Source: Vulcanimicrobiota bacterium
Lineage (GTDB): Bacteria > Vulcanimicrobiota > Vulcanimicrobiia > Vulcanimicrobiales > Vulcanimicrobiaceae
Assembly: GCA_013036105.1 (NCBI GenBank)
Contig: JAAXCX010000010.1
Location: 1 to 64,000, forward strand
Reading direction: 5' to 3'
DNA: 64,000 bases
The notes beneath the pieces are model-generated. The model was not told the origin of the DNA and searched no databases. It worked only from the letters and a program-made list of their open reading frames with translations. Below are positions 37,970 through 45,391 of the stretch, in pieces; position 1 is the first letter of the stretch, and every line of letters starts with the position of its first letter. A program made the translations under genes and the position numbers.

Positions 37970-38632
37970 ATGGACGCGCAGAACAACAGACGCATGCTGG
38001 GCATAGCCCTGGCGCTCTCGCTGCTCTTCCACTTGGTCCTGGCGCCGTTCGTCCATCCGCCCGCTGAAGCCGTGCCGTACTCCGTCCCACGGGTCATCAT
38101 TCATATGTACGTCCGCCCGACGCCCGAGCCGCCAAAGCCTCGGCCGCGCGCGCACGTTATCGTTTCGCATCCGCACTTTCCAATCGTAAGCCCGCAGGTC
38201 GCGCGACCCCATGATTCGCGCAATCCCCAGGGCCACGTGGCTATCACGCCGCCGCAGCCTACCGGCCAGCCATATGCGCCGGGCAACACCGGAACAAATG
38301 GATCCGGCGGCGTGATCAGTCAACCGGCTGCGACGGATGCGCCCGGTCCCGCCTGCAGCGAACCGAACATCGAAGCGAAGACAATCGCCGCGGTTTCGCC
38401 CGATCAGTCGGCGAGCGGATTTGCGGCCGGCAACAGCGCGACCGCCATGATCAAGGTCGATCTCGACGCAACCGGCCGCGTGACCGGCGTTTCAGTCTAT
38501 GCGTCGACGGGTTCACTCGAACTCGATCGCGCGGCGATGGACGCCGCTCGCCAAAGCACTTATGCGCCGGAAATGCGCGACTGCCAAGCGGTTCCGGGCT
38601 CGTATCTCTTCAAGGTCGAGTTCAGCAACTAA
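37970..38632 (+). CDS. TonB-family energy transducer protein
   Basis: A 220-residue protein. One N-terminal membrane helix (about 9-27, LGIALALSLLFHLVLAPFV), a Pro-rich spacer (VRPTPEPPKPRPRAHV) and a C-terminal TonB domain (ATAMIKVDLDATGRVTGVSV, then LDRAAMDAARQSTYAPEMRD). It would transmit proton-motive force to receptors such as the two in this window. ExbB and ExbD are not in the window. It is convergent with the CsaA fusion gene, sharing their last four bases. Confidence 0.85.
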   Translation: MDAQNNRRMLGIALALSLLFHLVLAPFVHPPAEAVPYSVPRVIIHMYVRPTPEPPKPRPRAHVIVSHPHFPIVSPQVARPHDSRNPQGHVAITPPQPTGQPYAPGNTGTNGSGGVISQPAATDAPGPACSEPNIEAKTIAAVSPDQSASGFAAGNSATAMIKVDLDATGRVTGVSVYASTGSLELDRAAMDAARQSTYAPEMRDCQAVPGSYLFKVEFSN

Positions 38633-39459
38633 TAAACGCGGACGCCGTTTTGCACGCCCGAGTCGGGCGCAAGAAGAACCGTCTCGCCGTTTTCGTCGGG
38701 CACACCGAGCACCAGAACTTCGCTAAGAAAACCTGCGATGCGCTTGGGCGGGAAATTTACCACCGCGACGATTTGCTTGCCGGCGAGTTCTTCTGCAGTA
38801 TAGTGCGCCGTCAATTGCGCGCTCGAATGCTTCGCGCCAATTCCGGGACCAAAATCTATCGTGAGTTTGTAGGCGGGTTTTCGCGCCTCCGGAAACCGCT
38901 CGGCAGAAACGATGGTTCCGGTTCGAATGTCCAACACCGAGAACGCATCTAAAGACAAGGTGCTTTGCATGTCGGGCAATTGATGAACCATGTCGAGGTT
39001 CACCTTTCGTTGGCCGTCGGGTTGAATTGCCTTGTGCAGTCGTAGGTAAGCTTTGATGTGCGGAAGCCGGCCCTCATCCTCTTCGAGAAAGGCGATAGCG
39101 CAATTGCATTGGTTGCATAGAAGACCACGAATTTTCTCCGTCCGGTGGTCGTGGTCGACATACAAGTACTGAAGAAAGTTGTCGTCGTAGCGTGAGTTCT
39201 GAGCTTTCTTACAATTCTTCCAATAGCGCTGACATATAGCGCAGCGTCCTCCTTGGGCCTCGAAGATCTGCTCCATTTCCTCCAACGAAATGCCGTATTT
39301 TCGCCGAAGATAGCTCCGGCGTTGAGCGGCCCGGCGTTTGGTACTGCGATGATAGTAGGCGCGACTCCAGGCTCTCGTGCACGCTTGGCAGCGTCTAGTG
39401 CCGCAAGGTTGTGCGATCTTATGAGCACCACACTTCCCACAATAGTCGTTTCTCTTCAT
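38629..39459 (-). CDS. Endonuclease VII-like (HNH) domain fused to CsaA-type tRNA-binding chaperone
   Basis: A 276-residue frame with two unrelated parts. Residues 1-150 hold an N-terminal zinc-ribbon-like set (Cys7, Cys10, Cys19, Cys24, Cys27). This is followed by a recombination endonuclease VII-type domain: YGISLEEMEQIFEAQGGRC, zinc pairs C73xxC76 and C115xxC118, and VDHDHRT at 101-107. Residues about 166-276 are a complete CsaA (DIRTGTIVSAERFPEARKPA, KHSSAQLTAHY, VVNFPPKRIAGF, VLGVPDENGE). An internal ATG at 38991 (Met157) has AAAGGTGA upstream, so CsaA may also be made alone. An inverted repeat precedes the gene. Confidence 0.85.
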   Translation of the reverse strand: MKRNDYCGKCGAHKIAQPCGTRRCQACTRAWSRAYYHRSTKRRAAQRRSYLRRKYGISLEEMEQIFEAQGGRCAICQRYWKNCKKAQNSRYDDNFLQYLYVDHDHRTEKIRGLLCNQCNCAIAFLEEDEGRLPHIKAYLRLHKAIQPDGQRKVNLDMVHQLPDMQSTLSLDAFSVLDIRTGTIVSAERFPEARKPAYKLTIDFGPGIGAKHSSAQLTAHYTAEELAGKQIVAVVNFPPKRIAGFLSEVLVLGVPDENGETVLLAPDSGVQNGVRVY

Positions 39460-39554: not shown

Positions 39555-39627
39555 TGCCGAGACCGTGAATCGAACACGGGACACTACGCTTTTCAGGCGT
39601 ATGCTCTACCAACTGAGCTATCTCGGC
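39555..39627 (-). tRNA. tRNA-Phe (GAA)
   Basis: Cloverleaf with acceptor GCCGAGA/TCTCGGC, D arm GCTC-GAGC, anticodon stem TACGC/GCGTA with loop CTGAAAA (anticodon GAA), T arm CCGTG-TTCGATT-CACGG, discriminator A. CCA is not encoded, unlike the Val and Asp genes. Confidence 0.97.
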
Positions 39628-39674: not shown

Positions 39675-40778
39675 TCAGTTCGCGCCGATGATTGGGAATG
39701 TTCTGTTTGCGTCGCACTGCCCGGGCCCAGCATTACTAAAGCAGATCTGATGCGCGTAGGGGCCACCTGCGTCGAGGTCGGGAACGAACAGCCATACACG
39801 TCCGTTCGGCGACTCAAGGGTCGTTCCGGCGGTCCCAGCTACGCTCGTTCTTCCTACATTTGCATACATGCCATTACCGACGCGCCAACTTGCGGCGTTC
39901 ATGCGTGTAACGAGAACGGTGATGCCGCTGGGCAATCGGTATCGCACCGACTCGGGTGTACGCGTCGCGGTCACCGGCTGGGTGGCCGGCGCGACCGTCG
40001 GCGGGACTGTATGGCGCGGCGCGGCGGTTGCAGTGCGTAGCTTCGGAGCGGAGGTGTTTTTCGGAACGTTCGGCACGACTGTAACCGGAACGGCCGGCCC
40101 TTGCTGCTGCGGAATGTAAACGATTCGTGCCGTCGGCTGCGGTGGCGGCGGAATCGAGTTGTTTGCGGAACGCTTCGCAAGCGCAGCGGCAGTGCGCTTA
40201 GGCTGCGGCGTCGCTTCTGCTGCCGTGTGAACGGTGGGCGGCGCGGAGCGTTTCATGAAATATAAGCCTGCGGCGATCGTAATTGTGGCCGCGATAACGA
40301 TCAGCGCCACCATTGGCGGATAACTCCGGCGCGCGGTGGCCCCGCTTGTCGCGGCAGCTGCAACCGGCGTTACCGGAAGGTCCATTAGGCGCTGCATCAG
40401 CGCAACGAGCTCGCCCAGACGCGCTTCCATCGGCGGCGACATGGCGTCGAGCCAATGCACGCGCGTGATGTAATAGCGCAGATCGCCGCTGGGGACGACG
40501 TTTTCGATCCGGAAAGGCACGATGATCTTGCCCGAATCCGACGCGACCTCGAGCTCGCGCAAGACGTGCTCGGAGCGGTTGGCGTGGCCGGAGAAGATCA
40601 GCAGGACGATGCGGGCCGCGGTGATGGCGTCGACCAGCTGACGGCCGTACGGAATCCCCGCAATCGGATCGCGTGGAGCTATCCAACAGCGAATTCCCGC
40701 GCTTTCTAACTTCGCGCAGGCCGCATTCGCGATGGTCTTGTCCTCCGAAGAGTAACAGACGAAAACATCGTGGGCCAT
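39675..40778 (-). CDS. Membrane-anchored TIR-domain protein
   Basis: A 367-residue protein. Residues 3-130 are a TIR domain (DVFVCYSSEDKTIA, CWIAPRDPIAGIPYGRQL, LLIFSGHANRSEHVLRELEV); Glu75 sits where NAD-cleaving TIRs have their catalytic Glu. A membrane helix follows at about 155-175, then a long Pro/Ala/Thr-rich linker (about 176-275) and a C-terminal domain of about 90 residues with two Cys (HQICFSNAGPGQCDAN). The topology puts TIR inside and the C-terminal domain outside. TIR proteins can be NADases in anti-phage defence, but no defence partner is seen nearby. Confidence 0.85.
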   Translation of the reverse strand: MAHDVFVCYSSEDKTIANAACAKLESAGIRCWIAPRDPIAGIPYGRQLVDAITAARIVLLIFSGHANRSEHVLRELEVASDSGKIIVPFRIENVVPSGDLRYYITRVHWLDAMSPPMEARLGELVALMQRLMDLPVTPVAAAATSGATARRSYPPMVALIVIAATITIAAGLYFMKRSAPPTVHTAAEATPQPKRTAAALAKRSANNSIPPPPQPTARIVYIPQQQGPAVPVTVVPNVPKNTSAPKLRTATAAPRHTVPPTVAPATQPVTATRTPESVRYRLPSGITVLVTRMNAASWRVGNGMYANVGRTSVAGTAGTTLESPNGRVWLFVPDLDAGGPYAHQICFSNAGPGQCDANRTFPIIGAN

Positions 40779-40831
40779 GAAGCTCCAAAAGGGTTACGCG
40801 CATGGCAGTCGGGCTCCCGCGCACGCCAAAT

Positions 40832-40860
40832 AAAAAAGACGCCCCGCGTGAGCGAGGCGC
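40832..40860 (-). terminator. Terminator of the glycine-zipper gene
   Basis: On the minus strand GCGCCTCGC-TCAC-GCGGGGCGT forms a 9-pair stem with two wobbles, followed by C and six T. It lies 22 bases after the stop at 40882 and before the TIR gene. Confidence 0.85.
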
Positions 40861-40881: not shown

Positions 40882-41433
40882 TTAGGTGCCGGGCTGGCGG
40901 CGAGCCGAGACGAGCTGCACTTGCACTCGCGATCCCGCGCTCACGACCATGTTGGCCTTGTTGTTTTTGGCAGCCAAATATCCGCCGGCCGCGCCGACCA
41001 ATCCGCCGCCGCTGGCGCCGTGGAATATCCATTTGCCCAAGATGTTTCCGACGACCATACCGCCGACGGTCCCGACGACTTCCTTCACCGTGTTGTTTTT
41101 GGTGACCGCGTTCCAGCCCGTGACGACGCCGACGATTTGATAGGTCGTGCCGTTAGAGAGCCGCAACCGGTTCAGAGTAATGCGAAGCTGGGCCGGACGG
41201 CCTTGTCCGGCGCTGACGACCTTCGAGACGGTGCCGTACATCGTCGCATTATAGATGTTGGCGCCCGGGGCGCTAACATTCGAAATGGACACCATCTCGC
41301 CGACGTAGGCGTGGCCGGTGTCGATCGTCTGGTTTATCGTGCCGCTAAGATTGGTTCCCGGCGAAAGCGCCAGGGCCACTCCGCTTGCGAAGACCGCCAA
41401 CACCAGGGCGGCCAAGGGTGAGATGACGCGCAT
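40882..41433 (-). CDS. Secreted protein with glycine-zipper-like segment, unknown function
   Basis: A 183-residue protein with AAAGAGG upstream and a signal peptide (MRVISPLAALVLAVFASGVALA). A beta-rich first half (GTNLSGTINQTIDTGHAYVG, TTYQIVGVVTGW) is followed by a Gly-rich hydrophobic region (VVGTVGGMVVGNILGKWIFH and GASGGGLVGAAGGYLAA) like the glycine zippers of outer-membrane-associated proteins. The ending VSAGSRVQVQLVSA is typical of that group. No specific role can be named. Confidence 0.7.
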   Translation of the reverse strand: MRVISPLAALVLAVFASGVALALSPGTNLSGTINQTIDTGHAYVGEMVSISNVSAPGANIYNATMYGTVSKVVSAGQGRPAQLRITLNRLRLSNGTTYQIVGVVTGWNAVTKNNTVKEVVGTVGGMVVGNILGKWIFHGASGGGLVGAAGGYLAAKNNKANMVVSAGSRVQVQLVSARRQPGT

Positions 41434-42971: not shown

Positions 42972-43643
42972 TTGGCCGTCGCATTTAAGGAAGAGCCCCG
43001 GTGGCACGCCGCCCTTGCGGTCGTTGCCATTCTGCTGCTCTACGTCACGCTGCCGCCGCGCATCGTAGTCGGGCCGCTCTGGCTCTTGCCGTTGCTCGTC
43101 TTGGGCATCCTCGTTCCTCTGCTGATTCTCTCTCCGCATCGCCATCGTGAGGCCGAATGGCAGCGCGCCGCGTCGATCGCGCACATCGCTATTCTGAGCG
43201 TCTTCAATGTCACGACGGTCGTACTATTTCTGGTGCATCAGCTCTCAGTGCATCACCACCGCGTGTTTACGGGAGAAGAACTGCTGCTTGCTGCCGTACA
43301 GATTTGGCTGACGAATATCTTGGTCTACTCCTTGTGGTTTTGGGAAGTGGATGGCGGAGGCCCGTCGGCGCGGTGCGCGTTGAACTTTGTCCAGAATCCG
43401 CAACTGGGCGATTTCATGTGGTCGCAGAGCTTGCTCGATCCAGCCCTTCGCGCCAAATCGACATGGCGTCCGCGATTTCTGGACTACTTGTTCCTCGCAT
43501 TCACCAACGCGACCGCATTTAGCCCCACGGACACATTTCCGCTGACGGGCTTGGGAAAAGTGCTGATGATGGCCGAGGCGCTGACGTCGCTGGTGACGAT
43601 TGCGATCGTCGCCGGCCGCGCGGTCAATTTGCTGGGAAGCTAG
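42972..43643 (+). CDS. DUF1345-like membrane protein
   Basis: About 223 residues from TTG 42972; the start is uncertain because no ribosome site is visible. Hydrophobic helices appear at LAVVAILLLYVTLPP, LWLLPLLVLGILVPLLIL, IAILSVFNVTTVVLFLVHQL and in the C-terminal half (LVTIAIVAGRAVNLLG). The ending FLDYLFLAFTNATAFSPTDT is characteristic of DUF1345/potassium-channel-like membrane proteins. It diverges from DUF5069 and converges on the DUF4239 pair (4-base overlap of stops). Confidence 0.75.
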   Translation: MAVAFKEEPRWHAALAVVAILLLYVTLPPRIVVGPLWLLPLLVLGILVPLLILSPHRHREAEWQRAASIAHIAILSVFNVTTVVLFLVHQLSVHHHRVFTGEELLLAAVQIWLTNILVYSLWFWEVDGGGPSARCALNFVQNPQLGDFMWSQSLLDPALRAKSTWRPRFLDYLFLAFTNATAFSPTDTFPLTGLGKVLMMAEALTSLVTIAIVAGRAVNLLGS

Positions 43644-44434
43644 CTCGAAAAGCCAATGTGGTGCAAAGCGTTGTAGACGTGCACGTACGCGTCGGGGTGA
43701 ATCGCGATGTCGCCTCGGAACGGGTAATCCAGCTCCGCGATGAGCACGAAGATGAGCGTGATGACCGCGGTTAACGCGGCCACCATGATGTGTTGCGCGG
43801 CCGGCCTCTCGACTTTGAAGTAGAACGAGAAGAAAATCGTGACGGCTCCTACGACGAGCATCGTCGACCATAGGACGTTGGGTATGCCCGTCGCGTTGTC
43901 GCGGACCCGCTGCCGGCGCGCATCTAAGAACTGCGATGCGTAAGTGATGGCTTCCGACTGCACGAGCGAGGCTTGTTGGTTAGGAGGTTTAAAATTCGTC
44001 ACCAGATACTGAATCCGGTATGCGGCTTGTGAGGCCCGCCAACTCTCGCTGCCGCGCGCCAAGAGCGGCCACTCGTCGTGGAGCAGCAGGCTGATATAGC
44101 CACTGACGCCGGCTTGAATCTCTCCCCGCGCGGATTGGGGCAGCGCATCTGCGAGATGATAGAGGTCGGAAAGAGCGCTGGCTTCGATCTGCGTGTTCTG
44201 TCCGGCGGCGTCGTACTGTTGCCACACTCCCGCCACCATGAACGACATCATGACCGCCAACACCGTCCCGAGCATTTGCAGGATTGCGGAAGCGACGTCG
44301 TTGTGTGTTATCAGATCGTTGCGAGTCAAGCGGGTTCGCGTCCAGTAAAGGGCGACGCCCGTGACTATACACGCCAGCACCACCGTGAGCGGCATTAAGA
44401 TCCACGCCGGCAAGGCGTAGACCCACGTCATCAT
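43640..44434 (-). CDS. DUF4239 membrane protein (second of a tandem pair)
   Basis: A 264-residue protein with two N-terminal membrane helices (WILMPLTVVLACIVTGVALYW; ILQMLGTVLAVMMSFMVAGVW), a central soluble helical part and two C-terminal helices (VLWSTMLVVGAVTIFFSFYF; IMVAALTAVITLIFVLIAEL) ending in LDYPFRGDIAI. This is the DUF4239 (bestrophin-like) pattern. The role is unknown. It starts in the stop of its paralogue (1-base overlap). Confidence 0.85.
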   Translation of the reverse strand: MMTWVYALPAWILMPLTVVLACIVTGVALYWTRTRLTRNDLITHNDVASAILQMLGTVLAVMMSFMVAGVWQQYDAAGQNTQIEASALSDLYHLADALPQSARGEIQAGVSGYISLLLHDEWPLLARGSESWRASQAAYRIQYLVTNFKPPNQQASLVQSEAITYASQFLDARRQRVRDNATGIPNVLWSTMLVVGAVTIFFSFYFKVERPAAQHIMVAALTAVITLIFVLIAELDYPFRGDIAIHPDAYVHVYNALHHIGFSS

Positions 44435-45225
44435 CAGTAGCCGCCTTGCAAATGATGTAAGGAATTCCAGGCGTGCTGGAACGCGGCGGGCGAAACGGCA
44501 ACGTCACCGCGGAACGGATAATCGAATTCGGCGATCAACAGCATGACGATGACGATGACCGACGCAAGCGCCGCAACCATCACGTGCTGTTCGAATGGAT
44601 TTTCCACGCGAAAGTAGTAGGAGAAGACAACCACGGTGCATGCGACAAAAAAGAGCGCTGCCCAGAGGATCAGCGGTATGCCCTCGTCATTTGCATGGAG
44701 GCGCTGGCGCCGGTCGTCCAGGAAAGCGTTTGCCGCATCGAGTGCGTGTGACTGCACCATAATCTCCTCGGAAGACTTGGGTTTCAAGGAAGTAATAACG
44801 TTCAGGACATCGTAGGCCGCCGTGTAAGCGGCTTCGCTGTGGCCGCCCGCGCGCATCAGTGGCCATTCCTGTTTGATCACGAGCTCGATGTACTTGTCCA
44901 CACCGTCTTGGATCTTCGCCCGCGTCGGCTGCGGAAAAGCGTCGGCCAAGTGGTGGAGGTCGGCGACCGCGCTAGCTTCGCGTTGGACGGTATCCGAGGC
45001 CAAAACGTACTGCGTCCAAACGTTGATGAACATAAAAGAAAGCCCGACCGCCAACACGGTGCCGATGATTCCGAAGATCGCGCCGGCGACGTCGTTATGC
45101 GAGATCAGCTGCTTGCGTTTGATGGCCGTGCGGACAAGGTGAAGGCCGCCCGTCGCCACGCCGCTGGCGGCGATCACCGCGAGCGGAGCCAACACCCAGA
45201 TCGGCAACGCATATACCCACGTCAC
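44434..45225 (-). CDS. DUF4239 membrane protein (first of a tandem pair)
   Basis: A 263-residue paralogue of the next gene, alike along its whole length (WVYALPIWVLAPLAV, HNDVAGAIFGIIGTVLAVGL, FDYPFRGDVAVSP). I choose GTG 45225 because it aligns with the start of the paralogue and because any longer frame would run into the tRNA-Gly gene. A GGAG lies 12 bases upstream. The pair may form a hetero-oligomer (inference). Confidence 0.82.
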   Translation of the reverse strand: MTWVYALPIWVLAPLAVIAASGVATGGLHLVRTAIKRKQLISHNDVAGAIFGIIGTVLAVGLSFMFINVWTQYVLASDTVQREASAVADLHHLADAFPQPTRAKIQDGVDKYIELVIKQEWPLMRAGGHSEAAYTAAYDVLNVITSLKPKSSEEIMVQSHALDAANAFLDDRRQRLHANDEGIPLILWAALFFVACTVVVFSYYFRVENPFEQHVMVAALASVIVIVMLLIAEFDYPFRGDVAVSPAAFQHAWNSLHHLQGGY

Positions 45226-45320
45226 GCCGTCTCGTTTCTCCGTTGCAACCTCGCACTCCGGCGCCGTATTGTAGGACGGGACCGGAGGTGGGAAGAACCG
45301 TGGCCGACGCCCAACCGCGA

Positions 45321-45391
45321 GCGGGTGTGATGTAATGGTAGCCTGTGACCTTCCCAAGGTCGACGCGCGGGTTCGATTCCCGCCACCCGCT
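45321..45391 (+). tRNA. tRNA-Gly (CCC)
   Basis: Cloverleaf with acceptor GCGGGTG/CACCCGC, anticodon stem TGACC/GGTCG with loop TTCCCAA (anticodon CCC), T arm GCGGG-TTCGATT-CCCGC, discriminator T. CCA is not encoded. Confidence 0.95.

Follow-up and report, generated by a model that had tools for sequence, protein, structure and literature searches.

A single-pass TIR protein with a predicted NADase glutamate and its SLOG–SLATT partner gene in a genus of Vulcanimicrobiaceae

Results

The window, that is, the whole stretch of 64,000 nucleotides of a Vulcanimicrobiota bacterium that was analysed (contig JAAXCX010000010.1), contains on the minus strand a gene that starts at position 40778 and ends at position 39675 and codes for a protein of 367 amino acids plus stop codon (39675..40778). 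The original prediction had placed this open reading frame exactly, without stating the strand, and had divided its product into a TIR domain, a membrane helix, a linker and a C-terminal domain, a division which Pfam, an AlphaFold2 model, hydropathy and composition confirm. The TIR domain (residues 1–133; 40380..40778, minus strand) is modelled with confidence (pLDDT 70–96 per blocks of ten) and matches Pfam TIR_2 over residues 5–113 (E=4e-19, 69.6 bits vs a cut-off of 28); its best structural match is the TIR domain of SARM1 (Z 18.8, rmsd 1.8, 126 residues). The model places a membrane helix at residues 155–177 (40248..40316, minus strand), and hydropathy gives a single hydrophobic segment for the protein, at residues 156–174. 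The following linker (residues 178–276; 39951..40247, minus strand) is predicted to be disordered, with pLDDT almost wholly below 50 for residues 184–271, and proline, alanine and threonine together make up 55% of residues 178–275 vs 33.5% of the whole protein. The C-terminal domain (residues 277–367; 39678..39950, minus strand), which is predicted to lie outside the cell, is beta-rich and modelled with moderate confidence (residues 277–366, pLDDT 63–84). In Pfam only TIR models matched the protein, and no family was recognised for the outer domain. The cysteines expected in this domain are Cys346 and Cys355; they are invariant in all five orthologues, and the domain probably contains a disulfide bond.

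Model and hydropathy thus bear out the receptor-like layout proposed earlier, with a single membrane passage, a separate outer domain and a topology that is predicted. The charges beside the helix (two lysines and arginines vs one) leave the topology unsettled, and it is the invariant cysteine pair and the PASTA domains of related proteins (see below) that argue for a C-terminal domain outside and a TIR domain inside; no observation indicates an extracellular TIR domain.

The capacity to cleave NAD had been suggested from the residues around Glu75 (codon at 40554..40556, minus strand). Glu75 is the sole column identical across 13 aligned TIR domains, distant ones included, and it aligns with the catalytic glutamate of SARM1, counted as Glu642 (the residue altered in the structure entry 'Sarm1 E642A'). 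As judged by this alignment the TIR domain of the window carries the NADase-type catalytic glutamate; NAD cleavage itself is predicted. Four residues before the glutamate the window protein has a histidine and SARM1 a tryptophan. This tryptophan matters for the cyclic ADPR products of AbTir, so that with histidine in its place the window TIR may yield plain ADPR or a different product. Conceivably the TIR domain has no enzymatic activity and instead serves as a scaffold for the recruitment of further TIR proteins, such as the ones encoded on contig C16 of the same genome, as in animal TLR adaptors. TIR domains often assemble, and there are three TIR genes in the genome of the window, which would suit a scaffold. 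The glutamate is strictly kept, however, and in fold as well as in alignment the domain comes nearest to SARM1, an NADase; we regard a scaffold as very improbable.

Full-length orthologues with 64–76% identity are present in four of the six other genomes of the same genus (G002, G003, G005, and G006); no orthologue was found in G001 (94% complete) or in G004 (56% complete). Across the orthologues, codons 29–131 of the TIR domain have a dN of 0.01–0.07 vs a dS of 0.5–1.6. Given four orthologues in six genomes and this low dN compared with dS, the gene of the window is not a chance open reading frame. Helix, linker and outer domain diverge faster than the TIR domain, and at the sequence level the protein consists of a conserved TIR engine and a receptor part that diverges. 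The outer domain was found in five of the 149 genomes of the phylum searched, all of the same genus, plus one weak hit (G075, E 1e-3) in a protein with a lipoprotein-like start, which we judged unconvincing.

The original prediction had considered that sensor and effector may be one polypeptide. The comparison with the relatives does not support this as the default reading: in all four other genomes of the genus with the TIR gene (G002, G003, G005, and G006) a SLOG–SLATT gene lies divergent from it, and a scar in the window marks the deletion of this gene. The start codons of both genes are ∼20–60 bp apart, and the partner gene has ∼546–548 codons, counted from an internal ATG. The same pair of TIR and SLOG–SLATT genes is found in a genome collection on PLWS01000003.1 (Candidatus Eremiobacterota MAG palsa_1523). 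The partner protein was modelled with a pLDDT of 90 from an alignment of 50 sequences, chosen from 75 usable ones after five of 80 had been dropped for stops or odd length, and it has a SLOG domain at the N-terminus, after which come long helices that contain hydrophobic segments. The Rossmann-like SLOG fold matches YpsA (Z 15.8, rmsd 2.7, 160 residues), DprA (Z 12.6), and LOG (Z 9.7). The SLATT matches of the partner in the genus lie below the cut-offs, both in Pfam (22–24 bits vs 24.7–26.3) and for NCBIfam SLATT (28.4 bits vs 45); among 50 relatives, DUF4231 is matched in 28 (at E up to 0.01) and NCBIfam SLATT_1 and SLATT_3 are matched in 18 each (at E up to 0.001). Pfam gave no SIR2 or macro match for the partner protein, and TRPM2 appears only as a weak whole-chain structural match with a very high rmsd.

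The flanks in the window match G005, G002, and G006 at 88–92% as far as positions 40832 and 40820, leaving a junction of 11 nt between the flank matches (40820..40832, no strand assigned). At this junction the three relatives have ∼1.67–1.68 kb comprising the whole open reading frame of the partner with less than 20 bp extra on each side. From this flank comparison the deletion took exactly the SLOG–SLATT gene from the locus. In G001 both genes are absent, and compared with G002 it has a clean empty site with ∼12 nt between the flanks; in G004 the contig ends beside the small flanking gene, and this genome is uninformative here. This small gene (40882..41433, minus strand), present in all seven genomes of the genus, forms the conserved edge of the site, the other edge being a tRNA-Phe gene (39555..39627, minus strand). 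As the empty site of G001 between the small gene and the tRNA-Phe region lacks both genes, TIR and SLOG–SLATT genes are gained or lost as a single cassette. The genes around the TIR gene that were scanned or read are housekeeping-type genes and tRNAs with no known defence genes among them; they do not confirm a defence-island setting, although the pair itself behaves as a gain-and-loss cassette. Two further observations concern this neighbourhood. At 38629–39459 a single open reading frame combines an HNH domain of the Endonuclease VII type with a tRNA-binding (CsaA-like) domain, where G003 and G001 have two open reading frames; and at 43640–45357 there are two tandem membrane genes, the first with a Bestrophin-like PF14023 match and the second similar by eye.

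Codons 1–28 of the TIR gene (40695..40778, minus strand) show no synonymous change among the window, G005, and G002, and the rest of the TIR domain has a dS of 0.5–0.9 in the same pairs; a 29-nt part of this start is also kept in G003. Judging by this codon comparison, these codons may hold a promoter or control region for the lost divergent partner. A sigma-70-like promoter was not found in the divergent start region of the two genes.

The sole SLOG–SLATT match in the genome of the window, a copy with 54% identity, lies on contig C16, which is assigned to the same genome. A TIR gene lies 1.2 kb away from this copy, and nSTAND-like, trypsin-like and TPR-S genes are nearby. As its partner gene has been deleted, the receptor is probably an orphan, unless it uses the copy on C16. 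Contig C16 itself has a run (L038, 17–12070) of an nSTAND-like gene, a TIR gene with a sub-threshold FxsC match, the SLOG–SLATT gene, a trypsin-like peptidase, and a TPR-S/TRAF-binding-domain protein. A second TIR protein encoded on this contig (L016, 7491–9119) has 67% identity in its TIR domain and continues into a membrane part that counts about seven hydrophobic segments; among the genomes of the genus this multi-segment fusion occurs solely in the genome of the window.

The pairing extends beyond the genus. In 98 related genomes a TIR_2 match lies on the same contig within 6 kb of 17 of the 22 SLOG–SLATT genes, where genome sizes and the numbers of TIRs would lead one to expect 0.2; when the pair of the genus is taken once the count is 14 of 19. 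These 22 are the clear SLOG–SLATT holders, excluding a weak match in G048, with coordinates copied by hand, and the five without TIR_2 within 6 kb are those of G009, G050, G035, G075, and G077. Counted by genome, 20 have both genes, two SLOG–SLATT alone, 16 TIR alone, and 60 neither. A second survey read 79 of the 80 SLOG–SLATT loci kept in the genome collection (L063, identical to G006, was left out). A TIR-like frame lies within 5 kb in 31 of these 79 loci, as detected with a profile which favours SLOG–SLATT loci because the 11 TIRs that it was built from are mostly SLOG–SLATT neighbours. Pairs of TIR and SLOG–SLATT genes are present, for example, in Lysobacter sp. CFH 32150 (L139), Pseudomonas fluvialis (L106), and Stutzerimonas (L117). 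Over the 79 loci the density of TIR frames is 0.249 per kb in the nearest 500 bp around the SLOG–SLATT gene and drops to 0.0064 per kb at 5–8 kb. The two surveys are not independent, as the Eremiobacterota loci of the collection overlap with the genomes of the first survey. In 48 of the 79 loci, several of them short contigs, the profile detects no TIR frame at distances up to 5 kb, so that TIR is not the only partner of SLOG–SLATT. Patatin-like genes are common beside SLOG–SLATT genes in this phylum (by eye; two confirmed by Pfam), and for SLOG–SLATT on plasmids there was no match. In two loci (L121, 4578–7964; L134, 5811–9317) the proteins adjoining SLOG–SLATT have starts that are DUF4062-like by eye; DUF4062 proteins have been reported as TIR-like NADases (PMC13174449).

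These counts bear on the possibility that the TIR protein acts alone, as a membrane NADase which depletes NAD once its outer domain is triggered, the neighbour in the relatives belonging to a separate system. The copy in the window is intact without the neighbour and has Glu75, as this reading would have it. Against it stand the divergent pairing in four of four genomes, the joint absence in G001, and the general link of TIR with SLOG–SLATT genes, and we consider a solitary NADase improbable.

The receptor layout recurs as well, also beside SLOG–SLATT genes of unrelated bacteria. Pfam confirmed that TIR domains occur in membrane proteins beside SLOG–SLATT genes. The 31 loci hold 34 TIR frames (the two overlapping frames of L090 are within this number), and eight of these have an N-terminal TIR domain, one hydrophobic segment and a long C-terminal part (L087, L093, L120, L132, L136, L138, L139, and L141; the borderline L125 is uncounted). 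In another five of the 34 hydrophobic segments lie ahead of a C-terminal TIR domain (L065, L069, L072, L074, and L076). Pfam finds after the helix PASTA in L132 and L138, WD40 in L093, and TPR in L136, L141 and weakly in L139, and before the TIR domain CHASE2 in L065, L072, L074, and L076 and, below the cut-off, in L069; the CHASE2–TIR proteins come from the phylum of the window. Since the WD40 and TPR parts could be cytoplasmic, the clear outer domains are PASTA and CHASE2. The protein of L087, from a deltaproteobacterial MAG, has a TIR domain 47% identical to that of the window, one helix and a C-terminal part without a named domain, and its gene lies 56 bp from SLOG–SLATT. Within the phylum, the one-helix layout is found at a loose cut-off in six of 55 TIR genes, with a strong helix in the gene of the window and two genes of G047; this set of 55 leaves aside the weakest rows, the four orthologues of the genus, and one dropped gene (G093:C33). 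The TIR domain of the G047 protein on contig C6 is 63% identical to that of the window and there is a weak LamG-like match after the helix; by sequence it appears as the same TIR engine with a different outer part.

Two of these arrangements deserve a note of their own. In Clostridia (L132, 5568–7787; L138, 4551–6965) a protein with the order TIR, one helix, PASTA is encoded near SLOG–SLATT, and it is possible that this PASTA-type TIR protein senses the cell wall. In L065 (3604–9599) and L074 (8001–15334) a CHASE2–TIR receptor, a FecR–TPR envelope protein, and SLOG–SLATT are encoded in a gene run on one strand.

Outer domains of this kind raise the question of whether the pair serves immunity at all. 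It could be a device for envelope stress or physiological signalling that responds to a cue at the surface, for example, cell-wall fragments, by tuning membrane potential or metabolism. CHASE2 and PASTA are outer domains of the physiological-sensor type, some CHASE2–TIR genes sit with the FecR–TPR envelope protein, and both the chromosomal setting among housekeeping-type genes and the lack of a plasmid match for SLOG–SLATT would fit a physiological role. However, the patchy presence of the cassette within one genus looks like a conflict system, and patatin, nSTAND and other TIR genes near related loci resemble conflict systems too. On balance we consider such signalling in place of immunity unlikely, although it is the alternative to which we give the most weight.

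Discussion

We suggest, with somewhat better than even confidence, that the TIR protein is an NADase on an envelope receptor and that it makes an NAD-derived messenger which opens a SLOG–SLATT pore, that is, a logic like that of Thoeris with a receptor placed in front. The computed part of this explanation consists of the domain layout, Glu75, the SLOG fold, the pairing in the relatives, the deletion, and the recurrence of the pairing.

How such a system might work can be sketched as follows. The TIR domain would be located in the cytoplasm, followed by the one helix, the flexible linker would span the periplasm, and the outer domain would lie outside. When a trigger meets the outer domain, the TIR domains would associate in the cytoplasm and cleave NAD at Glu75, yielding an ADP-ribose-type messenger. 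This messenger would bind to the SLOG domain of the partner; pore opening or membrane damage by the SLATT helices would follow, with growth stop or cell death as the outcome. Topology, enzymatic activity, messenger, pore and trigger, as well as an anti-phage or envelope-stress purpose, are what we infer.

Extending the proposal further, one may think of a widespread bacterial counterpart of Toll-like receptors. Membrane-bound TIR enzymes with exchangeable outer domains (the genus-specific beta domain with its cysteine pair, LamG-like, PASTA, or CHASE2) would turn what happens at the surface, for instance, attack by phages or damage to the cell wall, into an NAD-derived messenger. This messenger would open a SLOG-gated SLATT pore, and the whole would correspond in prokaryotes to the sequence from receptor via NADase to TRPM2. 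We offer this extension tentatively and think that it may well be wrong. If true, the combination of an envelope-facing TIR receptor with a nucleotide-gated pore would link bacteria and the animal Toll-like receptors at the level of architecture, and sensing of phage or wall damage from outside combined with signalling by NAD products would become testable in bacteria. The loss of the partner in the window and the complete pairs in four relatives offer a natural comparison between orphan and paired receptors.

Mechanistically known bacterial TIR systems, Thoeris among them, have generally been described as intracellular sensors. In Thoeris, the products of the TIR protein ThsB are read by SLOG in the SIR2–SLOG protein ThsA, where SLOG binds 3'cADPR, or drive TM-macro effectors (PMC11204291). 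The likeness to the pair described here is the predicted NAD-derived messenger from a TIR domain, read by SLOG or by a membrane effector encoded next to it (PMC11204291). In contrast to Thoeris, the TIR domain of the window belongs to a receptor that has one membrane passage and an outer domain, and the partner joins SLOG to SLATT-like helices, with no SIR2 or macro match. Comparison of the window TIR with the PADLOC ThsB model gave a weak match (17.4 bits, E 7e-4), and NCBIfam Thoeris_type3_ThcB4 matched only the TIR domains beside SLOG–SLATT in L098 and L117, far below the cut-off. We considered membership in Thoeris and rejected it: ThsA, be it SIR2–SLOG or TM-macro, is absent beside the TIR gene in the relatives, and there is no partner in the window. 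As the defining ThsA is absent, the system is not a member of Thoeris. Among openly accessible papers nothing was found on type III Thoeris, on ThcA in Thoeris, or on DUF4231 with TIR, and an earlier description elsewhere is possible; CHASE2 and TIR joined in one protein were not found either, one paper mentioning both in its accessible part.

The SLATT domain with its two transmembrane helices has been predicted to be a nucleotide-responsive pore and is found with TIR genes (PMC7159879, PMC9503650). SLATT and TIR are common to the pair described here and to the SLOG/SLATT conflict systems that Burroughs, Iyer, Kaur and Aravind predicted. As far as the accessible parts of that work go, the combination of TIR and SLATT is described there for phages and for systems centred on a GTPase, whereas a single-pass TIR receptor with a SLOG–SLATT fusion is the arrangement found here. 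Phage defence by DRT10 needs a SLATT protein, which stands beside a signal-making enzyme, as is predicted for our pair (PMC12632851). In DRT10 this enzyme is not a TIR protein but a reverse transcriptase accompanied by a non-coding RNA.

With respect to animal proteins, the TIR fold is closest to SARM1, and the comparison of the partner with TRPM2 is an analogy only. TRPM channels likewise carry a SLOG domain on a membrane protein. With Toll-like receptors the protein of the window shares an outer domain, one helix and a TIR domain that is predicted here to be cytoplasmic, arranged in the reverse order along the chain; it differs from them in having no leucine-rich repeats and in carrying its TIR domain at the N-terminus.
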